Origin: Chrysophaeum taylorii
Lineage: Eukaryota > Sar > Pelagophyceae > Pelagomonadales > Pelagomonadaceae
Length of the DNA: 64,000 nt
Direction: 5' to 3'
Assembly (NCBI GenBank): GCA_029834535.1
Contig: JAQMWT010000524.1
Location: 124,001-188,000, forward strand
Position numbers and translations under genes: made by a program. Below the pieces are notes generated by a model. It was not told the origin of the DNA. It was given only the letters and a program-made list of their open reading frames with translations, and did not search any database. Positions 4,847-16,752 of the stretch are shown in pieces (within the stretch, counting starts at the first letter, position 1; every line of letters begins with the position of its first letter).

Positions 4847-5183
4847 TGTGGCGCAAGGAAAATTTAGGCCTACCTGGCGCGCCTTCGAATCCTGGCTCGC
4901 CGCTCGCGTCCGTGCCCTTGATGGAGTCACTGGACGAGGATGGCCGTTCTCCCGCCACACAACCACAAACAACTTCCGTGCGTGGTCCTCACAACTTGAG
5001 GATCGGCTGTTGCTTTATGATTAAGATATTATCGAAACACAGAAATCAGGGTGACACATGTCACGGAAAAGGAAGATGATGTCATAAAGAAAACTGACAT
5101 CATCATGACGGAGTAATGTGCCCCTGATAAGGGGGGGGGACTAGAAGAGGGGTAAGCCTTAGGAGGCGGGAGTTGCCGCCACA
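4847..5183 (-). repeat. 3' LTR of the Gypsy element
   Basis: This 337 bp copy begins TGTGGCG and ends CGCCACA on the plus strand, so it has the TG...CA ends and short inverted repeat of an LTR. It is about 95% identical by eye to 16418-16752, with about 15 differences including a G-run length change near 5135. On the minus strand a purine-rich CAGGGGAG lies immediately upstream (5186-5195) in the position of a polypurine tract. Confidence 0.85.
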
Positions 5184-5223
5184 GGACTCCCCTGGTAAGA
5201 ATTCGAGCTGCCCCGGCGAGGTG

Positions 5224-5511
5224 CTAGCGCGAGGAGCGCGGCTTCGCCTCACGAGCATCTCGTGAACGAATCTTCTGGTAAACGCGGGTGATGACCGGCT
5301 CAGGAACTCGGCCACTGCGTAAAGTAAACTTGGGGATCAACACATCAATCTCGTGCGGAGCGAAATCCGTGACTAGAGAGATTTGACCCTCTCCGGGGAA
5401 ATGGTAGAGACTGCGTGCAGTCTTAGGCGTGTACAGACCATTCCGCTTGTCACATGCTACTACACAAGGTAGGGATTTAAGCCCTAACTCGTTAAGGACA
5501 TTAGGTCCCAT
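5224..5511 (-). CDS. unassigned coding remnant between the Copia 3' end and the 3' LTR
   Basis: A 95-residue minus-strand frame, open for about 16 further codons upstream, sits just inside the 3' LTR. Its composition is protein-like, but no retroelement domain is recognised. By position it should be the last coding remnant of the Gypsy element. It is far too short to hold RNase H plus integrase, so most of the Gypsy 3' half is deleted. It could also be an unrelated insertion. Confidence 0.35.
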   Translation of the reverse strand: MGPNVLNELGLKSLPCVVACDKRNGLYTPKTARSLYHFPGEGQISLVTDFAPHEIDVLIPKFTLRSGRVPEPVITRVYQKIRSRDAREAKPRSSR

Positions 5512-5971
5512 AGAAGCGCTTACACTGACAACGAGGAACGGAGCCTCTGTTAATTAAACAGAACACCCCGTACCTGACGGTACGCACCTGGAGGCCTACT
5601 CCATGTTGGAAAAGAGCTTCGGACTGGGTTCTTCATAGTCATGAAAATATATAATTGCGGAAGGGTAAGGAAGGAAGGAGAGAGGGAAAGCCGTATTACG
5701 GAGAGAAAACCCTCGTGTAGAGATAAGTGTGAAATGTTCAGGTGTCGCACACATAATAATGTGGCTCTCTGGACCCCCTCGAGTGTACCACCGCGACCAC
5801 GGTTCAGGGTAGAGTGGCGTTGGCTCGCAGCATCTTTGTTTTTAGTGGGATTCATCATGAGAGGAATCTCCACATCACGTCTTTTGTTGCATTTCACATT
5901 TTAGCGAGCCAGCATTCCTTTACATAGCAGGGTTAGTTTAAAGTCATTTCGGACATAATGAAGGGTAATGA
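5512..5971. other. non-coding stretch after Copia pol
   Basis: No convincing frame is present. By position, just downstream of the Copia stop codon at 5972 on the minus strand, this should include the Copia 3' untranslated region and possibly its LTR. No second copy exists in the window to delimit an LTR. AT-rich 'atatataat' at 5646-5654 is compatible with an LTR promoter but proves nothing alone. Confidence 0.4.
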
Positions 5972-8900
5972 TTAACCATCTTGTTGAGCTATGGGTTGTT
6001 GTAAGCCGAGTAACGTGCGAAATCTGCTGGAGAGTGGAGCTCCAAAGGGTTTGGTAAATCCATCGGCGATATTATGGGTACCGGAAACACGATGTAGGCG
6101 TATTCGTTTTAACTGTACGTAGTCGCGTATACGGAACCAGCGTGTGCTGATAGCTTTAGCCTTAGTCGCGCTGTCGGGGTTATTTGATAGATGAATAGCA
6201 GAGGCCGAATCTCCAAGTATAGGACTGTTACGTATGAACGACATGTCCGATGGGAGGGGATTGTCGTGAGCATCATAATCTAGTAGCAGGTCTTTCCCTG
6301 AAGGTTGGCGGAGATAGAAGTGAGGATTTATAACGAATGCCATTTCCGTTAGCAATTTGCGTAACCAGACCACATCATCGGCGCACATACTAAGGGCAAT
6401 AAGTTCACTCTCATGCGTAGAAGTAGCTGTAATAGGTTGCAGCTTAGACTTCCATGTGATGAGAGAACCAAACAAAAAGGTAGCGTAACCGGTTGTAGAT
6501 TTACGGTCTTGTTCATAAGAGGGTGCATTATCAGCATCAACGAATGCGACCAGTGGATCAAAATTACCTGAATTAACTTGTTCTTTAGTGTAGTCCAACA
6601 TGGTGGCCATGTCAGTACGATTACCGATAAGAAGTCGAAGATGGTCCATTAGAGCGGAAGAACCAGAGTAGTACCAGAGGCGAAGATTGCGATTTTCGGG
6701 CTTGCGCAAGTAGCGGAGCGTTCCTGTTAGTACTTGAACATGTAGAAATGCTGGATTGTGCATTCCTCGAGAGCAACGACTGAGACTTTGTGATAGATCG
6801 GGGCGACAGGCCAATTGGACAAACGTGAGCTTGCCGAGTAGAGTAGAGTAGAGTAGAGTAGAGTAGAGTAGAGTAGGTATGAAGAATGAACTTGTCATAT
6901 CAGAAGATGGCTCTCCAGTTTTATACGTGGTTGATGGTGACATCGGTGTGGAAGTGGGACGTAACTGCATTAAAATGGGGTACTCTTCGAACAATGCGTC
7001 TAGTTTAGCCTGACAGTCCAGTGATATAGAGCCATCAGTTGTACGCGTTATGCGCATGTCTAGGAGAGTATGAACTTCCTCGAAGGTGTCGACGGAGTAT
7101 TCCTTTTTCAGGGCTTGCTGGAACTCACGACGTAGAGTTGCCGAAGTACAAGTAATGACGACGTCGTCTACTAAGAGTGTGCAAATTAGAAATGTAGCGT
7201 CAGCTTGGACTTTAGCGTAAATGCATGTGTCTCTTCGAAATCGTGTGTAGCCTAATGAACCAAAGAAGCCGTTTATGGTTTGATTCCAAAGGGCAGGGCT
7301 CTGACGCAATCCATAGAGAGATTTAAGTAGCTTTGGGAGACGGCAGCCTTGGTATTTAGTATCTTCAGGATCGAGAAGGTAAATGCCTTGTGGCAGTTTG
7401 ACATAGACATGAGAATCGATGGGAGCTTGAACAAAAGCGTTAGGGACGTCGACATGGTAGACGGGAAGTCGCAGATGAGCTGCTAGCGCCAAAACTCAAC
7501 GGATGCCGGTAAACTGTGCCATAGGGCTGAATGTGTTGAAGAAATCGGTGCCCAGAGAGGCTAAGAATCCTCGTAGGACCAGGCGTGCTTTATGTTTAAT
7601 GTACTGACCAGCAGCATTGGTTTTTATACGTAGGACGAGACGGGTGTCAATAGGCTTTGAGTTGACCATTGGCAGCGCTAGTTTAAAGCAGCCAAACTTA
7701 ACAATGTCAAAAATCTCTTTGGAGATGGCAGCAACATAAGCTTTGCGATCAGCGTCTGAGAGACCTTCGAGACAGTTCAACTCATATTCATCAATTTTGA
7801 TATCTTTGGCTTGAATCTTGTATTCGTCCGAACCAACCGTGCTGGGGTCATGAGTCGTCGTCAGATGAGTAACTGCGCAAGAAGCGGCATTATCGGGCAG
7901 ATGAGCGTGATCGGGATCTTCGACGAGTTGAACGACTAGTAGAGGAGCATCACCAAGGTGGGCCTCAATGTAATGCGATTGCACGGTGATATAGTCTTCG
8001 ATGGCGGAGAGATGAGGCTCGGAAGCACCATAAGAAGCGTCATTATGATCCAAAATGGAGTGGGGCGTGAACAAAGCATAAGCATATTGAGCGGGAGGAA
8101 CTTGAAAGGCGTGAGCATGTTCAGAAATTAAATGAACGAGAGCTTGAGGAAGGTGAAAGTCTGCAAGGTTGACGTCGTCGCAGAAGTGAACATGGGGAGC
8201 ATCAGGCGATGGGTGGGTATGGCTCCTATGACACATAACTGAAGAGGACTGTGAAATCGCTTGGTGCACATGGTGATGAAGGGATGTTGTAAATCCCCCC
8301 TCTGGAGGTATAGCCGTCCAGTGGATGGCATGAGCGAGATGAAGGGAGTGGAGGGTGGGGTCGCAGAATGTTATGTACTGCTTGGAGAGGTCATACTTGA
8401 AGTCGGCAAGCGTACCACCGGCTTGTTTATAAGCCGCAACAGTAGGCGAAGCAATACGAGTAAGAACATCCTTGAGATTGGTTTTGCGACGAGGCTGAGG
8501 GTGATGAGGGCCACGGGTGAGACGGAGGACATCCTGGGAGTAGAGAGATCGATAAGATGGTAAAAGTGGCAGAGTGTCGGGAGACACTTCAGATGTAGGT
8601 GTGGTGGCGGAAGTAGCGGGTGCAGGAGCAGCTGGAGCAAATGCGGATGCGGGAGAGGGAGTATGGAGATGAGAAGAAGGAGTCCCCCTCTCATGGTCAG
8701 TGTCGGTAGGCATAGCATTCCCCCTCTGCGCCGCATCATTGGAGGTGCTGTGAACAGAGAAGGGAATGTCGGGTGAATGTGCGGGAGGTGGATGCTGTTC
8801 ATAATCAGGAGGAGATTTAGAAATAAGATGAGGATAAGTCAGTTTAGAGGAAACACGGACTTGACCGTTTTCAGGATTAAGGACAACATCGGCTAAATGA

Positions 8901-9487
8901 TTAACATGGGGTGTTATTAAAGGGTTTATAACGTTAGCACCGCATAAGTAGAGGTAGGGACATCGGGGTTCATATTTATGAAATTCGTTAGGTTCCAAAT
9001 GCAGATAACAAACAGACCCAAAAGGTTTGAGGTAGTCTTGTTGGGGAACATTACATTGGTCTAACAAAACTTGTTGGGGGCTTAGGACTTTATTGTAAAT
9101 ACGTTCGAGGGAAACGTTAGGGAGAAGATTATACGATTGGATAGCATGTATAACAGCCCACGGGTAGTGTGGTGCCGGATCTGTTAGGGGGTGACCTTTA
9201 TAGGATACATTAAGCATATGCCGGTGTCGTGTAGACGCGGCAGTGGCTATGTGACCAACTGCGGCTTCGACTTCATGATTAAAGACATGTAAGTAAGGGG
9301 GGAACGCAGACATATTAATACCATGTTCCACACGGAAGGGGGTTGTAACGTGCTGGGGTAAATAGGGTTTAAAGGAATCACAATAAATTTGTTTTCGTTG
9401 TACATGAACATAAGTAGAGCAAAAATTACGAACAAACTCAAGGGCGTTACAAAATTCGCTGGAGTTAGTGCTACGACAAAAGTACAC
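5972..9487 (-). pseudogene. Copia-type pol: integrase C-terminus, reverse transcriptase and RNase H, one in-frame stop
   Basis: Two frames in the same phase, 9487-7496 and 7495-5972, are separated only by a TGA at 7498-7496. The upstream part (about 660 residues) begins inside the integrase core, passes through a low-complexity Pro/Ser/His linker and ends in the RT fingers (AISKEIFDIVKFGCFKL, then a KARLVLRG motif). The downstream part continues the RT (VDVPNAFVQAPI, KSLYGLRQSPALWN, catalytic LVDD in place of the usual YVDD) and ends with Copia RNase H (KSTTGYATFLFGS, ESELIALS, ADGFTKP). The stop falls within the conserved 'IR.xLALAA' segment. A pentanucleotide repeat (6837-6874) expands a YSTLL motif just before the conserved 'GKLTFVQLACRPD' segment. 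The upstream end is a break caused by an insertion at about 9504-9720. Identification as Copia is firm. Whether the stop is a true mutation or a sequencing error is not decidable here. Confidence 0.9.
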
Positions 9488-9503
9488 TAACGAAATTTAG
9501 AAA

Positions 9504-9722
9504 TAACTAACTAACTAACTTCGGACCTCTCCCGGGCATGGGAGCCAGGCTGGGCCGGCAGTAGCCGGTCCAGGATCACAGAGCAAAAATCACACAGCTG
9601 GGGTAGAGGCGAGGGATGAAAAGCCGTTGATGGCGGACCGCCACTTGAAGACAATGATATGTCGAAAGGATCCCCATTCCGAGAGCACAGATACGTAACC
9701 ACCGTCACATGCCCAGGCTTCA
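9504..9722 (-). mobile_element. short TTAG-tailed retroposon inserted in Copia integrase
   Basis: This segment interrupts the integrase reading frame: upstream coding ends near 9720 and integrase resumes at 9487. It ends on the minus strand with a GC-rich module and TTAG repeats (9504-9520) shared with 4132-4209. The module contains a perfect 5-bp stem with a 4-base loop (9555-9568). No RNA polymerase III promoter boxes were recognised, so SINE versus truncated LINE is open. Short AAATTT-type sequence near both ends could be a target duplication but is too simple to be convincing. Confidence 0.55.
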
Positions 9723-10868
9723 CCAGGTTAAAAAATTTTTTCGAATGATGGTTGCTTGATAAGGTGGTGTGGATGAGGAAAGCGTTTTTTTATGAATCGT
9801 AAAATCCACACAGAACTTACGGTAGGGTACGTCAGATGGGTGGTGTCCAGGACTGGCAATAACCTGAACAGCTTTTATGGCTTGAGAATCACTGGAATGG
9901 TGAATGTTGTGAAAATTGGTAGCTCGCTGTTGCGCATCTCGAAATGCGAGGGTGCCCCTGGCATGGACTTTCTTATCGAAGGGCGCATGCTTCTCATGGA
10001 GCTGTCTTGGCGTTATAAGGGGTATTTGTTTTTCTTTAGTAGGAGATGGTATATCTGCGGATGAGATGTTAGAGAGGAAAGCATGAGCTACTGAATCAAT
10101 GTGAAAAGAAGGAAGTTCGTGGTTAGAAGTGATAGTATCACAACATAAGAGTTTTTTATTGGAGATGTAGAACATTGTAATGGAACTCTGGTGTAATGTT
10201 AAGGATGTATCTGTTGGGAATATATTTGTGAAGAAGGTTGACCTATAGTTTTTGGTTAGAGGAGCGTGATCAGGGTCAAACGATGGTGATAGTGTTAATA
10301 TACGCAAGTCATAAACAAGCTGACACAAATGTTGTATGATATGTTCCAGCTGGAATAGCATTTGCGATGATATCACAGCATAGGTCAGGGGACAAAGACA
10401 AAAGAAAATTGATTTGGTACGCTATGAAGTTATTGGCGCGTGCCAATTCGCGAGTTGAGTAGTGTCGAATGCGATCGAGTCGTGGATCGTACACCAGCAT
10501 ATTGGCAAATCCACGAATGGTAGGAGTGGGAGTGTATATAGAGTGAACTTTGGCACCCATCTTCCTATCGCTTGATGTTATAAAGCCCAAATATCTGCTT
10601 TGGGACAAATGCATGTCACTTAAAGCAAATATTTTGTCGATGAATTCGATACGATTTTCCTGAGGGTAGAAGACAAAAGAATCGTGAAATACAGGAGAGG
10701 TATAGGAAACCAGTGCTTGTACTAGACGACACGTATCTTGATTTTCGTTATTATGATGGTATGCTTGGCAAAGCCAAAGAAAACCGGTAACTGGTTCGAG
10801 AGAAGTAGTCTTATCGATTCCGGCATCGTGTGTTAAAAGGGGGTAGGTTTCGCCAAGAGCATTTATGT
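9720..10868 (-). pseudogene. Copia upstream region (gag/protease-like to integrase start), frameshifted
   Basis: Minus-strand coding runs in one frame from the junction at about 10868 to 10309, then continues in another frame from 10376 to 9720, an overlap of 68 bp that looks like a frameshift. The second frame (218 residues) ends in a segment resembling a pre-integrase and integrase start (CVDFTIHKK). That fits its position just before the insertion and the resumed integrase at 9487. The first part has no motif I can name; gag or protease is expected by order. No 5' LTR of a Copia element is seen upstream of it. Confidence 0.6.
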
Positions 10869-11770
10869 GTGCCTTAATATCAATGCATGTCCGCCATCGT
10901 CGCATAGCGAGAAAAGCTAAAGCATCATCTTGTCGAATGTTCGGCCGACTGTCATTGACCAATTGATCGTTGAGCTGACGTAAGTCAACTGCACCACGGA
11001 ACGCGTTTGACGTTCCAATCTCAGCTCCTTTCTTCGGAAGCATCAACACAGGAAAGCCCCAAGGTGAGTTGGCCGGACGAATGACCCCATCCCGGCACCA
11101 CTCGCTGATCTGCTTGCGGAGACAATCGAGCTTCGCAGGCGTCAATCGGTAGGGCGTCATCTTAATCGGTCGCGGATTCGCGTCTTTGAATCGTAGAGAC
11201 ACAGGAGGTGATTCCACGGGTCTCATAATCGGGTCGAAAAAGGCCCAAGAATATTGCACACAGTGACGGAGCATCAGTTTCGCCTCGTCATCTAAGTGCG
11301 GATTGTCAGGAATTCCTAACTCCTGAACAACCTTGTCAACTTCTTCCTTTGTAGCAATTTTCACTTTCATTGCTTCGTTGTCCTTGACATGCTCAGGAGT
11401 TTGAGGCAGCGGTGCACCCTCAGCATCGCGCGGCGCATCTTTCCATGGCACATCAAACTTCTTCTCATATTTTAGTCTCACTTCCGGGTGGCTTTTGTTG
11501 ATCCTCTCGCCTTTGACACGAACGCTCGGCTCGCTCTTAATCTTCGGTTCCCGATCTCGCTCAGGATCTGGCGGAACATCCAAATTTGGTTGTCGGGGGG
11601 GGGCAGCAGAAGAAGCATGAGACGTCCCCGGCTCATCTGTTGCAGGCGGAATCAACGGTACCTCTGGAGGTTTCCATTTGGTGCGATCTTGGAGATCATC
11701 AGTCGATACCCATCTTACGACACGTGTGCGCGTGTTTAACAGCGGAACTTGTACGTGACGAAGGGTGGTT
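10869..11770 (-). pseudogene. Gypsy reverse transcriptase, N-terminal part only
   Basis: From the first Met at 11655 the frame encodes an acidic/basic linker followed at residues about 165-262 by Gypsy RT motifs: TPYRLTPAKLDCLRKQI, VIRPANSPWGFPVLMLPKK, an AVDLRQLND stretch, then WRTCIDIKA. The frame is also open for more than 30 codons upstream of that Met (to about 11770), so the Met is not necessarily the protein start. After IKA, at about 10868, the sequence continues in frame into non-Gypsy sequence assigned to the nested Copia element. The catalytic YxDD and everything after it are absent. Confidence 0.85.
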
Positions 11771-11778
11771 TCATCAAT

Positions 11779-12243
11779 TTACAAATAATAATCAAACGGT
11801 CGGTCTGCAGGACTCAACGCCGACGGCAAAGCTTCGCCGCTCAGGTGAAAATCCTTGGTCACAGAGTTGTGCAGATCGAGTACTAATAAGGTCATCGTGT
11901 CTGGTGGCACGACGGACGCCAAGTGTTTCAACGAGGTCGTCCTGGAGAAGCCGGCCCAATCAAAACCAAAGGGCATTGTCAGCAACTCCGAAGTCATTTT
12001 CAGATTCAAAGATCTGTAATCGGAACGGTGCGGTCCTACACGAAGCGGGACACGCGTAACGGTGTAAGCTGCGTCTGTCGCGGCTCGCGATGATCCTAAA
12101 TTGTTCATCTGAAGTAAATGTCGTTCGTCGGCGTAGCCAAGCGCGGCGGCGAACTCCTGCTGCATATTCTTGCAAGTCTTTGGAACTGCGCGCAAATGGA
12201 GTGGATGGCTGGAAACCAACAATCGCACGCGACAGCTCATCAA
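11779..12243 (-). pseudogene. continuation of the methyltransferase after a frameshift
   Basis: This frame contains a protein-like stretch (CKNMQQEFAAALGYADERHL, then NNLGSSR). Its spacing after the PPC motif suits the region between motif IV and motif VIII of a cytosine-5 methyltransferase. An overlapping minus-strand frame carries SRDRRSLHRY at nearly the same position, which resembles motif VIII better, so at least one more indel probably lies near 12085. No catalytic ENV motif was recognised. The element's methyltransferase is therefore probably broken in this copy. Confidence 0.45.
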
Positions 12244-12273
12244 ACTGGGCGTTATGTCGTAAAATTTGACAAC

Positions 12274-13146
12274 TTACACGTAAGGGTGCAAACGTGCAAC
12301 GTAAGAAATAATCGAGGCCTCCTGCTCTATCAACCACTTGAAGAAACCAGCCATCTTGCATAATTTCATCGTCCAGTGGGTAGCGGTGACTCCCTTCCCA
12401 ACATCTCTGGAAGTCAAGTTGCACAGAGCGGAGTGTACGCAGGGTGGCGACGCGATACACATCGATGACGACCATTCCGCGTATGGTAAATAAGATTCAA
12501 TCAACCGTAAGGTTGTAGCATAGCGACCAAACAGTGTGTGCTGCACCACAGGAATATTCGGAAAATTCTCATGGTGGATCTGGTTGGCGGTGTCCGACGC
12601 ATCGAGTGCTAGCACGACTCGAAACGACGTCCCACGCGTTTCGTTGGCTCGTTGGAGACCTAAAGTACGGCCCCCGGCTCCACTGAACAGCATCACCACC
12701 TTGCGATAAGTGATTGGAAGCAATTGAACCTTTTCGTATCGGCGGCGGATCTCCGCTTCGGTGATCTCGCGGCACTTCTTTTCATCTTCTTCCGACCTTC
12801 GAGCAAACTCGTCGTCGCCTTCGGGTCGTTTGAGGGAGGACTTGTCCGCCATAGCGGTCGTAGCGTCCTTCTGCGCCGTGCTCAACAACATCGGCGGGGG
12901 AGACGCGTCGCAATGCGTCAAATGACTAGCGACGGAAACGGTGAAAGAAAGGTTCCCCTTGTCGTATCCTTCTTCACATTCTTTCGTAAATTCGTTGATC
13001 GTAGAGACGTTCAACTCATCTTCGTACCTAACGATATCGCCAATCGCAAGGACTTCGCCTTGAGTGACGACCGTCGGCACTTCTTCCGCGGCAGTAACCG
13101 CAACCCGAGCAGCGGATCGGTCGTGCTCTTCGCAAGAAGAACACAT
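12274..13146 (-). CDS. cytosine-5 DNA methyltransferase domain inside the Gypsy element
   Basis: The 290-residue frame has a variable acidic N-terminal half, then two diagnostic motifs of the C5 methyltransferase family. The S-adenosylmethionine-binding motif I is LFSGAGGRTLGL at residues 153-164, with an acidic residue in ALDAS at 182. The catalytic motif IV is ASPPCVHSA at residues 232-240, with the nucleophile Cys at 236. The frame ends before motifs VI-X, which appear to continue in other frames at 12243-11779. It lies between the protease and the reverse transcriptase on the same strand, so it is part of the element's polyprotein and not a host gene. Members of this family methylate cytosine in DNA. 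Acquisition of such domains by retrotransposons is known from some eukaryotes, including dinoflagellates and charophytes. Confidence 0.8.
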   Translation of the reverse strand: MCSSCEEHDRSAARVAVTAAEEVPTVVTQGEVLAIGDIVRYEDELNVSTINEFTKECEEGYDKGNLSFTVSVASHLTHCDASPPPMLLSTAQKDATTAMADKSSLKRPEGDDEFARRSEEDEKKCREITEAEIRRRYEKVQLLPITYRKVVMLFSGAGGRTLGLQRANETRGTSFRVVLALDASDTANQIHHENFPNIPVVQHTLFGRYATTLRLIESYLPYAEWSSSMCIASPPCVHSALCNLTSRDVGKGVTATHWTMKLCKMAGFFKWLIEQEASIISYVARLHPYV

Positions 13147-13199
13147 TCCTTCGACAACACCTACTGCTCGTTTTCAGCAAACGTAGCGACGAAAACCTG

Positions 13200-14503
13200 T
13201 CACATTTCCATGTGTTTCGACAAAGTAACCGGTAGATTGCAAGTTCGACCGGGCTCGATTTGAAGCGTGCGCGCAGCGTAAGCCACTACTCCTCGCGTGT
13301 CTTCTCCCGGAGCTGGGGAGAATTTGGTCGTAGCATGTCCCCGCGTCGCCAAGGCTACCGTTCGTTCCGGCGGCGGGCTTCGGAGATCTTTAATCGTGCT
13401 CAAGCGAGCGTAAACTCGAGTCTTGACTAGGTCAAGAGTCTTCCGAAATGCATCGTGTTGATGATTGTAAATCGGTACGGTTGTCGGGTCTCGATCGTAA
13501 ATAGATCGAAAGGTCACGATGGGTGCATCGACTCGTTCATCTTCGACTTTAATCATCTTGCGCCCGTAGACGACTTGGGTTCGATAAAAACAGATTCGAT
13601 CGTGGGGGTAGTCCACGACGGCTCCTAAAACTCGTATATCGCGCCCTCCAAACAGGAACAGATAGTTCGTATCGGCCACAATAGCGACGATGGGGGCGGC
13701 GATGTTGTCGGCGAGGGCGACCCGAACCGCGATCCAACGAAAGATCGTCGTCGTGTTCAACCCTGATCCGTACAGCCTGCTCTTAATCGGAAGTTCGCCT
13801 TCATCGAAAATCAACTTATCTTTGGCCAACTTTCTGACCATTCTCGCCAAATATAAGAAACACCCGCCATTCCATCGACACCGATGGTCGTCGAGAATTT
13901 CGGTCCGTCACGATTCCTGTAGATGTGACAGGCCATAAACGTAAGAGTACCCGTATCTAAACAACGGAGGGTAACCAAATCATCTTCGATCGTCTTGCCA
14001 TCTCGCGGCGTCAACGAAGTGTGAGCACATCGGGCTCTGACTCGCTCATCTCCGGGGTTGGGCATCGATACCGCGGCTTGAGCTCTCGTCTCATCTGTTG
14101 TTGGCGTCATCGACGTAGCGCTCGCGGCAGCCTCTTTATCTGGCGGCTTCCGCTCTTCCTCCAAGACAATCTCGGAGGGAATCAGTGCTGGTAGGGGATC
14201 CCGATCTTTGCTATTCTCGGAAGCGAAGGATCTCTCCCATAACTCATTCATTTCGTCTTTCCAGAATGCATCCGTAGATTCATTCGTCGTTGGTTGATCA
14301 TCACCACCATCGGCGATCGGTTCCGTGTCGGCTGCAACTTCGAGTCCGTAGCTGAGCGGTTGTTCTGGTGGCTTCTTTAGCAAGAAGGTCCGAGTTCTCG
14401 TCCACCAAGCCTGCAGGTTCCACGTCGGCTCGTCTTCGTCCCAATTCAGAACGCTGCTAATCTTCTTCTTCAATCTATCCTTTTCTTCCGGCGGCGTGTC
14501 CAT
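13200..14503 (-). pseudogene. retroelement aspartic protease region, split over two frames
   Basis: The frame 14503-13811 ends with a CLDTGTLTF motif, carrying the DTG active site of a retropepsin (about 14000-13950). The frame 13850-13200 continues with hydrophobic strands and a 'GRDIRVLGAVVDYPHDRICFY' segment that matches the C-terminal part of retropepsins (ILGxDfL...vdY...). A frameshift between 13850 and 13811 separates the halves. The first frame also contains the acidic C-terminal part of the gag region. Order (gag, protease, methyltransferase, RT) supports one ancestral polyprotein. Confidence 0.65.
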
Positions 14504-16367
14504 GGCTCGATCCGTCGTGACCGAAACCGTTTCGGGGGGGGTCCGCAGGAAAAGATGGCGTCGTCCTCGACGTCAACTCTATCGTAAGATCGTCGTCTGC
14601 TTCACTCGCGATGGTCATCGTCTCGTCCGTCGAATGATCATCCGAGCTATCACTGCAGAAATCCATGTCTGGCTCACAGACAGTTCGGTCGCCAAAGGTC
14701 GTCCCTGGAGGGTCCAAAGATAAGCCGACAGCGTCGAGGACTTCCTCGTCAAAAACAAACGGTGCGTCGTCCGTGGACGGCTTGTCACGTAGCGTTATCG
14801 CGGACACTGGCTCACAAGGTGTAGCTTCTTCATCTTCCGAATCTGAATCGCCTTCCCAGTATCGTGGAGCTTCGAGGTCATCGCTCGAATCTTCGAGTTC
14901 ATCGCTCGACATCTCTTCACGAATTTGTACCAAAGACCGACGATCGGTCAGCACATCGTTGGGTGGCTCGTCCATCGACGGGCGAGCGAGATCGTCGAAT
15001 GCGGCCGCGGCAAGAGCGTCGGCTGCATCGTCGGGGCGGGTGTCCGTGTTCGGGTACACCATCACTCCTAATGGTAACTGCTGGCCGCAAGGGGTCGTAA
15101 ACGCGAGCGTAGCGCTCAAAAAGCCCAAATTATATTGGTGTCGGCCTCCGTCGTATTCGTCGATGCGCGATCGGCGTCGTCTGTGCCGGCGCGAACTTCG
15201 ACTGGGGATCTTGCTATCTTTGTCTCTCTCTGGCGTCAGTTCAGCAGGTCCTATTACCTCTGGATCGTCCCTGTAGGCAACTGGTGCTCCCAAGCCTATC
15301 CGAACTGTCTCAATCATCTCGTCTATCGAAACATCGACGCATGCGTCGTCTTCTTGCCAAAACTCCGACCAAACGTAAATTAACTCTCCGTTGGCGAATA
15401 AATCCTTGCCTCGGGGTCGGAATCGCACTTCTTTCCGCTCTGGCGGTTTCTTCCTCAGGAAACAGTGAGCTCGTATCCATACCGTCGGCACGCTCATCTT
15501 CCTCGTATCCATGCTGATCGTCCCATCCAAATTCGATTCCGGGCGGCAGCTATACTCATCCCTCATGGTATGTTCGGGATCTTTCTTTATCACATAGCCA
15601 TCATCATGTGCAGGCTGAAAATCTTTGAACTCTTCGTTCGTGAGTAATACGCCAGGGCTTTCACTGAGCTCCAAAGGCAGTTCATGCGCTATAAGATTCT
15701 TCACCTCTTCCGCATTCGTATTCATTTTCTCGGCCGTTTCACTCGGCCTATCATCCACTCCATCGCTTAGAATATCGGCAATCGCCTCGTCACTAAAAAT
15801 GTCGGCACACGAAACGTCTGCCATCGTGAATAAAACATCTGCACAAACGTCTGCAAAAACATCGGTAATCGGTTCGTCGGGGGGGGCTGCAAAAGAAGAA
15901 GGCGTCGTCCCCGACGTCATATAGAGAAAGAAATGGCCACCAAAGGGCACGTGACGTTCGATGGGCGTGTAAACAGGTGCTCGCTTATCACTCGAGATAA
16001 TCCTCTGCGACGCATCGTCGATCGATCGTGGAGACGAAGTGTCATCCACTTGAATGTCCGGAGGTAGACTCATAGCATCGAGCGTAGCAGCGGCGGGTCC
16101 ATTCCTTTGGGCGTCATCGGCTGAACGGGGCTCGTAAATCGGATTCACACATAACTCCGGCGCGTCGTCAAAACCAAGGGCTGTGTTAGCTGACGACAAA
16201 TCATATCGTGCCACCAACGGTGACACTGGGTCAGAAGCGGTTGTTGGCTTCGGCCCGTAGTTTAACGACGTTTCGGTCAGATTCTCCGATCCTGTGGGGA
16301 TTTTGGTTTGGGTGAGCTCCTTCCACTTGGATTGCTCTTGCTCGTAGTTTAACGACGTTTCGGTCAA
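14475..16367 (-). CDS. gag-like ORF of the Gypsy element
   Basis: This 630-residue frame starts about 50 bp after the 5' LTR on the minus strand. It is acidic, rich in Asp, Ser and Thr, with repeated 'DDAxxxL' and 'SSDD' stretches, and the N-terminus carries a duplicated TETSLNY motif encoded by a 23-bp direct repeat (about 16258 and 16345). No CCHC zinc knuckle was seen. Position immediately after the leader is the main argument for gag. It overlaps the next frame by 29 bp, which could be a programmed or accidental frameshift. Confidence 0.6.
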   Translation of the reverse strand: MTETSLNYEQEQSKWKELTQTKIPTGSENLTETSLNYGPKPTTASDPVSPLVARYDLSSANTALGFDDAPELCVNPIYEPRSADDAQRNGPAAATLDAMSLPPDIQVDDTSSPRSIDDASQRIISSDKRAPVYTPIERHVPFGGHFFLYMTSGTTPSSFAAPPDEPITDVFADVCADVLFTMADVSCADIFSDEAIADILSDGVDDRPSETAEKMNTNAEEVKNLIAHELPLELSESPGVLLTNEEFKDFQPAHDDGYVIKKDPEHTMRDEYSCRPESNLDGTISMDTRKMSVPTVWIRAHCFLRKKPPERKEVRFRPRGKDLFANGELIYVWSEFWQEDDACVDVSIDEMIETVRIGLGAPVAYRDDPEVIGPAELTPERDKDSKIPSRSSRRHRRRRSRIDEYDGGRHQYNLGFLSATLAFTTPCGQQLPLGVMVYPNTDTRPDDAADALAAAAFDDLARPSMDEPPNDVLTDRRSLVQIREEMSSDELEDSSDDLEAPRYWEGDSDSEDEEATPCEPVSAITLRDKPSTDDAPFVFDEEVLDAVGLSLDPPGTTFGDRTVCEPDMDFCSDSSDDHSTDETMTIASEADDDLTIELTSRTTPSFPADPPRNGFGHDGSSHGHAAGRKG

Positions 16368-16403
16368 GTGTCACCCTGATTTCTGTGTTTCGATAATATC
16401 TTA
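16368..16403. repeat. leader segment inverted relative to an LTR segment
   Basis: These 36 bases are the reverse complement of 16593-16628 inside the 5' LTR (35/36) and of 5022-5057 in the 3' LTR (36/36). They follow the putative primer-binding site in the leader. A transcript covering both would be able to form a 36-bp stem with a spacer of about 190 nt. Confidence 0.8.
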
Positions 16404-16417
16404 TATCCCCCACCACC

Positions 16418-16752
16418 TGTGGCGTAAGGAAAATTTAGGCCTACCTCGCGTGCCTTCGAATCCTGGCTCGCCGCTCGCGTCCGTGCCCTTGATGGAATCA
16501 CTGGACGAGGATGGCCGTTCTCCCGCCACACAACCACAAACCACTTCCGTGCCTGGTCCTCACAACTTGAGGATCGGCTGTTGCTTTATGATTAAGATAT
16601 TATCGAAACACAGAAATCAGGGTGGCACATGTCACGGAAAAGGAAGATGATGTCATAAAGAAAACTGACATCATCATGATGGAGTAGGGTGCCCCTGATA
16701 AGGGGGTCCCTAGAAGAGGGGTAAGCCTTAGGAGGCGGGAATTGCCGCCACA
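16418..16752 (-). repeat. 5' LTR of the Gypsy element
   Basis: This 335 bp LTR starts TGTGGCG and ends CGCCACA on the plus strand. Immediately inside it on the minus strand, 'TGGTGGGGGATATAAG' could pair with the 3' CCA end of a tRNA whose acceptor ends in ...CCCCCACCA. It is paired with the copy at 4847-5183. Confidence 0.85.

Follow-up and report, generated by a model that had tools for sequence, protein, structure and literature searches.

A methyltransferase-like domain in a broken Gypsy-type element

The window analyzed here is a 64,000-nucleotide stretch of the Chrysophaeum taylorii contig JAQMWT010000524.1 (positions 124,001 to 188,000), and it contains a broken Gypsy-type element (4847..16752, both long terminal repeats (LTRs) included; Copia-type sequence lies within it) that carries a domain very probably belonging to the cytosine-5 methyltransferase (C5-MTase) family. 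The element and all of its features given below lie on the (-) strand. An earlier note on this DNA had reported the S-adenosylmethionine (SAM)-binding motif LFSGAGG and the catalytic motif SPPC in one reading frame, and both are indeed present in the open reading frame (ORF) 13173-12274: motif I at 12670..12690 and motif IV, with the presumed catalytic Cys, at 12439..12450. The range 12274..13146, originally assigned to the domain, covers its first half and also takes in upstream linker; the C5-MTase-like core spans 11830..12738, and proceeds from the presumed Glu of motif VI (12325..12327, EQE in place of ENV) to motif VIII (RxR, 12223..12231) and a motif X-like LASVVPP (11902..11922). The core is interrupted once, not by the frameshift after motif IV that had been proposed, but by a premature in-frame stop TAA (12274..12276), at which 10/10 aligned sister copies have Tyr. 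The frame continues past the stop: a single tblastn alignment with the open frame of a sister spans 12888-11599, with 93.7% of residues identical. Frame breaks in the window copy sit upstream of the MTase ORF, at about 13.2, 13.85 and 14.5 kb.

The LTRs (5' LTR 16418..16752, 3' LTR 4847..5183) are identical at 323/339 positions, and no matching target-site duplication (TSD) was seen flanking them. The N-terminal part of the polyprotein (14475..16370), which aligns to the sister locus L021 (the alignment covers window positions 10875-16366 at 92.7% DNA identity), has no Pfam match. It is followed by a presumed protease region in two frames (13200..14572), placed by order, with no Pfam match at E<=0.1 in the window. 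Downstream of the MTase there remain a linker and an N-terminal stretch of the reverse transcriptase (RT; 10875..11778), over which the window ORF gives no Pfam RT match; the remaining part of RT is absent, as are RNase H and integrase. From 10.9 to ~15.1 kb the window copy is 90.6–95.4% identical in DNA to 7/7 sister loci compared; similarity to the sisters ends at 10875 within RT and restarts at 5373, and the sister L027 has about 2.9 kb where the window copy has lost the remainder of RT, RNase H and integrase. A Copia-type RT lies inside the Gypsy copy (RVT_2 in ORF 5972-7495 (-), E=1.7e-25), with a weaker RVT_2 match, under the cut-off, in ORF 7496-9496 (-). With its in-frame stop, upstream frame breaks and truncated RT, the window copy is a dead element. 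Just inside the 5' LTR, a 39-base piece (16365-16403) is an inverted match (38/39) to the LTR interior at 5022-5060, which hints at a rearrangement.

Sister copies and class of the element

The earlier note had suggested looking for intact siblings, and sisters with open frames do exist. Our protein search of the C. taylorii assembly (70.8 Mb, 697 contigs) revealed 131 stretches that match the window MTase region (131/131 scored, 946 candidates), grouped into subfamily A, mostly 83–95% identical to the window copy, and subfamily B, about 70–75% identical. A third subfamily, C, was first seen in a 601-base piece of contig C178 (41% identity over 194–200 aa); a search with this piece gave 152 matches (150 scored, 744 candidates; some copies split in two), and those listed are 60–100% identical, except for the last two, which are B-type. 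Paired matches with near-equal coordinates and equal scores on contigs C25/C521 and C10/C297 suggest duplicated or haplotype contigs, so that the copy counts are possibly somewhat inflated.

The sister P0001 is open in one natural frame of 2,723 aa through the MTase (PF00145, 1443–1498), RT (1997–2161), RNase H (2231–2368), H2C2 (2552–2610) and the integrase core (2628–2721), while P0002 has Pfam matches to PF00145 and RT. The Ty3/Gypsy domain order RVT_1, RT_RNaseH, H2C2, rve is found in P0001 and P0004 and is missing in the window copy. Of the position between protease and RT originally proposed for the MTase, the downstream side is confirmed by the Pfam matches of the sisters; on the upstream side retropepsin and gag are placed by order only, with no Pfam match even at E<=10 in the two sisters tested. 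Among 72 Gypsy-group RTs, chosen by eye from the matches listed, at least 48 have the MTase among the matches listed on the same strand, 0.8–1.8 kb upstream.

The domain could have been a fragment of a host DNMT gene picked up by one copy only, a possibility that the earlier note had raised against itself; this is refuted by copy number and position, as at least 131 stretches plus subfamily C carry the domain, and in the 48 copies checked it always sits in the corresponding position ahead of RT; we give this possibility practically no chance. The sister L026 has direct LTRs of 337 bp that are 99.7% identical and are flanked on either side by GCACA (a 5-bp TSD), and hence is a recent insertion. 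In its N-terminal part L026 has a long segment, containing a Cys/His cluster noted by eye, that is seemingly lacking in L021 and the window copy, which may mean that non-autonomous variants exist. As to anatomy and family, we are highly confident that the element is a high-copy Ty3/Gypsy-type LTR retrotransposon with a divergent C5-MTase-family domain upstream of RT.

Assignment to the C5-MTase family

GAGG of motif I, PPC of motif IV, the motif VI Glu and both Arg residues of motif VIII are invariant in 6/6 rows, subfamily C included, at identities down to 40–41%. Profile comparison with hhalign matched the element MTase to DNMT2 at 96.7% over motifs I–VIII, against at most 7.0% for 20 shuffles; reversed-profile controls likewise scored far below the real profile. 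The comparison with PF00145 that had been proposed as a check gave a match over the cut-off in some sisters and a match under it in the window: P0002 (25.3 bits) and further sister loci (>22 bits) exceed the Pfam cut-off of 22, and two subfamily C loci match C-terminal positions of the profile (C57, 244–321; C260, 260–321). Models built with rows from outside the family are consistent with the C5-MTase fold; predicted structures do not discriminate between C5-MTase families.

Several results weigh against this assignment, or against a canonical enzyme. The window ORF itself scores 19.7 bits against PF00145 (E=6.2e-4), and P0001 (18.7), P0003 (19.2) and the subfamily C piece (21.5) are also under the cut-off. 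In motif VI the Glu is kept and Asn-Val is not, and motif VIII has kept RxR and lost the usual Gln. AlphaFold failed on our alignment A1 when no outside rows were added (pLDDT, the model's own per-residue confidence, 31.7), and with outside rows the Foldseek TM-scores by query length were <=0.60 among the matches listed. That the window ORF scores low against Pfam and that the first model failed would be expected if this were some other Rossmann methyltransferase resembling C5-MTases by chance; given the profile match over motifs I–VIII with clean controls, the sister loci above the Pfam cut-off and the C-terminal matches of C57 and C260, we regard such a coincidence as very improbable. Queries of the protein databases with the polyprotein region and alignment A1 found no relative, which carries little weight, as these searches need shared 5-letter words and similar lengths and missed the sisters too; IMG/VR and prokaryote genomes yielded no relative either.

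Selection on the domain

We estimated dN/dS (nonsynonymous to synonymous divergence) as NG86 medians over pairs that are not independent, with broken copies included and stop codons skipped; duplicate loci (L001, L005, L012, L016) and those with <93% query coverage were excluded, and pair totals are derived from the printed sequence numbers. Pairs retained were 171/171 (A-A), 3/3 (B-B) and 57/57 (A-B) for the MTase, 230/231, 6/6 and 88/88 for the linker, 21, 3 and 21 (none dropped) for RT, and 170/171, 1/1 and 27/38 for the protease region, where the dropped pairs were saturated or had dS <= 0.02. Between subfamilies A and B dN/dS was 0.083 for the MTase, 0.034 for RT, 0.103 for the protease region and 0.172 for the linker before the MTase. 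The corresponding values within A were 0.235, 0.201, 0.300 and 0.260, and within B 0.175, 0.164, 0.043 (1 pair) and 0.518. A dS of about 1.6, as reached here, is close to saturation. These ratios point to clear purifying constraint on the MTase between A and B, weaker than on RT and stronger than on the linker; a point on the other side is that the MTase ratio is higher within the subfamilies (0.235 and 0.175) than between them. Since the enzyme has been kept by selection in sister copies, it probably matters to the life cycle of the element. The claim that a C5-MTase-family domain is built into a Gypsy element is upheld on four counts, namely copy number, open frames in sisters, selection and profile comparison.

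Another reading is that the domain has given up catalysis and now plays a structural role in the polyprotein or binds nucleic acid, which would explain why EQE replaces ENV and why motif VIII has lost its Gln. We consider it unlikely, as GAGG, PPC, Glu and both Arg have stayed unchanged at ~41% identity and the A-B dN/dS is low.

Origin of the domain and its possible substrate

Our comparison of origins took in two profiles, DNMT2 and bacterial/phage C5-MTases. The hhalign scores to five-row DNMT2 subsets (50.0–75.3) were in 24/24 cases above the score to a set of five C5-MTases from bacteria or phages (41.6, or 34.7–45.1 on leaving one out), and searches of PDB sequences put DNMT2 on top, non-significantly (E 0.1 or worse). 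DNMT2, the closest of the two profiles tested, aligns with the element MTase at motifs I, IV and VIII, including the 'LTPTQ...RPR' block of DNMT2 with 'ITPxL...RxR' of the element. The element enzyme, which has a short recognition region, differs from DNMT2 in lacking ENV, in sitting in a retroelement polyprotein, and in not keeping the CFT stretch, which is AYT in 5/5 covering element rows, with only Thr aligned in a place where the alignment is uncertain. On these sequence comparisons the origin of the MTase leans to DNMT2.

DNMT2 is a tRNA cytosine-38 methyltransferase. The domain might derive from a DNMT2-like enzyme and methylate RNA, either the tRNA primer or the genomic RNA of the element, and not DNA, with the effect of protecting the RNA from cleavage or helping in priming. 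The PDB ranking, the 24/24 hhalign comparisons and the shared motif VIII block all favor this explanation, as does the lack of a CpG footprint in element copies (see below); we rate it as a minority possibility, to be kept in mind.

The earlier note had proposed that the element methylates its own copies or host DNA; complementary DNA (cDNA), host DNA and RNA are all candidate substrates. The reading that we prefer is that the element methylates DNA. The MTase domain would be translated as part of the polyprotein, share the particle with RT and methylate cytosines in cDNA freshly copied from the element itself, so that element DNA would reach the chromosome already marked. The mark would avoid nucleases or cytosine deaminases or, alternatively, let the host quickly quiet the element, limiting damage. 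De Mendoza et al. argue for such cDNA marking by a Pol-borne MTase in SymbioDIRS (PMC5890265). Among the subfamily A copies (22 with >=88% identity and >=300 aa), we sought a footprint of CpG methylation and saw no sign of heavy CpG methylation. The CpG observed/expected ratio, taken from 20 of them, was 1.28–1.36 (1.26 in the whole window), that is, without depletion, and C/T differences at CpG (0.056) compare with 0.046 at CpA and CpC and a higher 0.078 at CpT. These figures count against the cDNA-methylation mechanism, as does the absence of activity of KnitGypsy-Dnmt3 in yeast, which its authors call inconclusive (PMC5890265). We give the mechanism slightly less than an even chance; the statement as a whole, a conserved element-borne MTase that acts through cDNA methylation, we hold to be evenly balanced.

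Relation to known elements

Elements of the DIRS, LINE and Gypsy classes that carry DNMTs are known in Symbiodinium and Klebsormidium nitens (PMC5890265), so that a Gypsy element carrying a cytosine MTase is itself not new. The precedent, KnitGypsy-Dnmt3, resembles the present element in its LTR Gypsy domain set, in encoding a cytosine MTase within Pol, in having copies without introns and in being under purifying selection (Ka/Ks < 0.2 for KnitGypsy-Dnmt3). It differs in its Klebsormidium host, in an MTase assigned by tree to Dnmt3, whereas the ochrophyte Chrysophaeum has a very divergent one with DNMT2 leanings, and in DIRS-like repeats (PMC5890265), as opposed to the ordinary direct LTRs and 5-bp TSD of L026. 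SymbioDIRS-Dnmt3 and SymbioLINE-Dnmt are likewise high-copy retroelements bearing a cytosine MTase, but of the DIRS and LINE classes and in a dinoflagellate; the SymbioDIRS enzymes have been shown to be active on CG in yeast, the SymbioLINE enzyme has not (PMC5890265).

The earlier note knew of no such element in this type of alga, and our searches of the open-licence PMC literature listed no report of an MTase-carrying retroelement in ochrophytes. PMC12344493 cites streptophytes and dinoflagellates for such elements; the accessible portions of two papers on stramenopiles (PMC9998398 and PMC3145265) make no mention of a retroelement-borne DNMT, and the main text of the C. taylorii genome paper does not use the words 'retrotransposon', 'transposable' or 'repeat' (PMC10366177). 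What is new is the ochrophyte host, the very divergent DNMT2-leaning MTase with its short recognition region, and the ordinary LTRs. To the dinoflagellates and charophytes from which retroelement-borne cytosine MTases have so far been reported, the ochrophytes would add a third host lineage. If the enzyme is active, the element offers an occasion to ask why it would encode the very mark by which elements are usually silenced, and whether the targets of such enzymes are DNA or RNA.

A second MTase family and host DNMTs

Also new is that this genome has a second family of repeats, whose MTase is apparently unrelated to that of the Gypsy element. The PF00145 search identified it as the group L035-L062 (64 stretches; best 47 of 64 scored, 883 candidates), with frames of up to 2,133 aa and the motifs TLPCQ and IVENVPP. 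Its profile matches bacterial C5-MTases at 96.0% (20 shuffles at most 0.5%) and DNMT2 at 14.4%; between the Gypsy MTase profile (A2) and the second-family profile (A3), both shallow, there is no detectable relation (0.45%). No clear RT or RNase H partner was found among the matches listed. In L049 (487–3423, contig C96) a retropepsin-like LIDGGASF stretch, noted by eye and without a Pfam match, lies upstream of the MTase-like domain.

A far more divergent enzyme, at least three subfamilies of its carrier and a second MTase-bearing family would show that such capture recurs. A bolder proposal is that mobile elements in this one genome made two unrelated C5-MTase captures, the Gypsy one being a DNMT2-derived RNA-cytosine methyltransferase. 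We consider this improbable; if true, an LTR retrotransposon brings along an RNA-cytosine methyltransferase of its own, whose target may be the tRNA primer or the genomic RNA.

As to the host itself, PF00502 found no match, and a piece of rbcL is of the red type. A survey of host DNMTs, which could miss intron-split genes, found the candidate L034 (contig C621; PF00145 65.4 bits, RING match only sub-threshold), which from its 2,086-aa frame we infer to be DNMT5-like, and the host DNMT2 gene L033, which shows 100% identity to CTAYLR_008533 of the marine pelagophyte C. taylorii.
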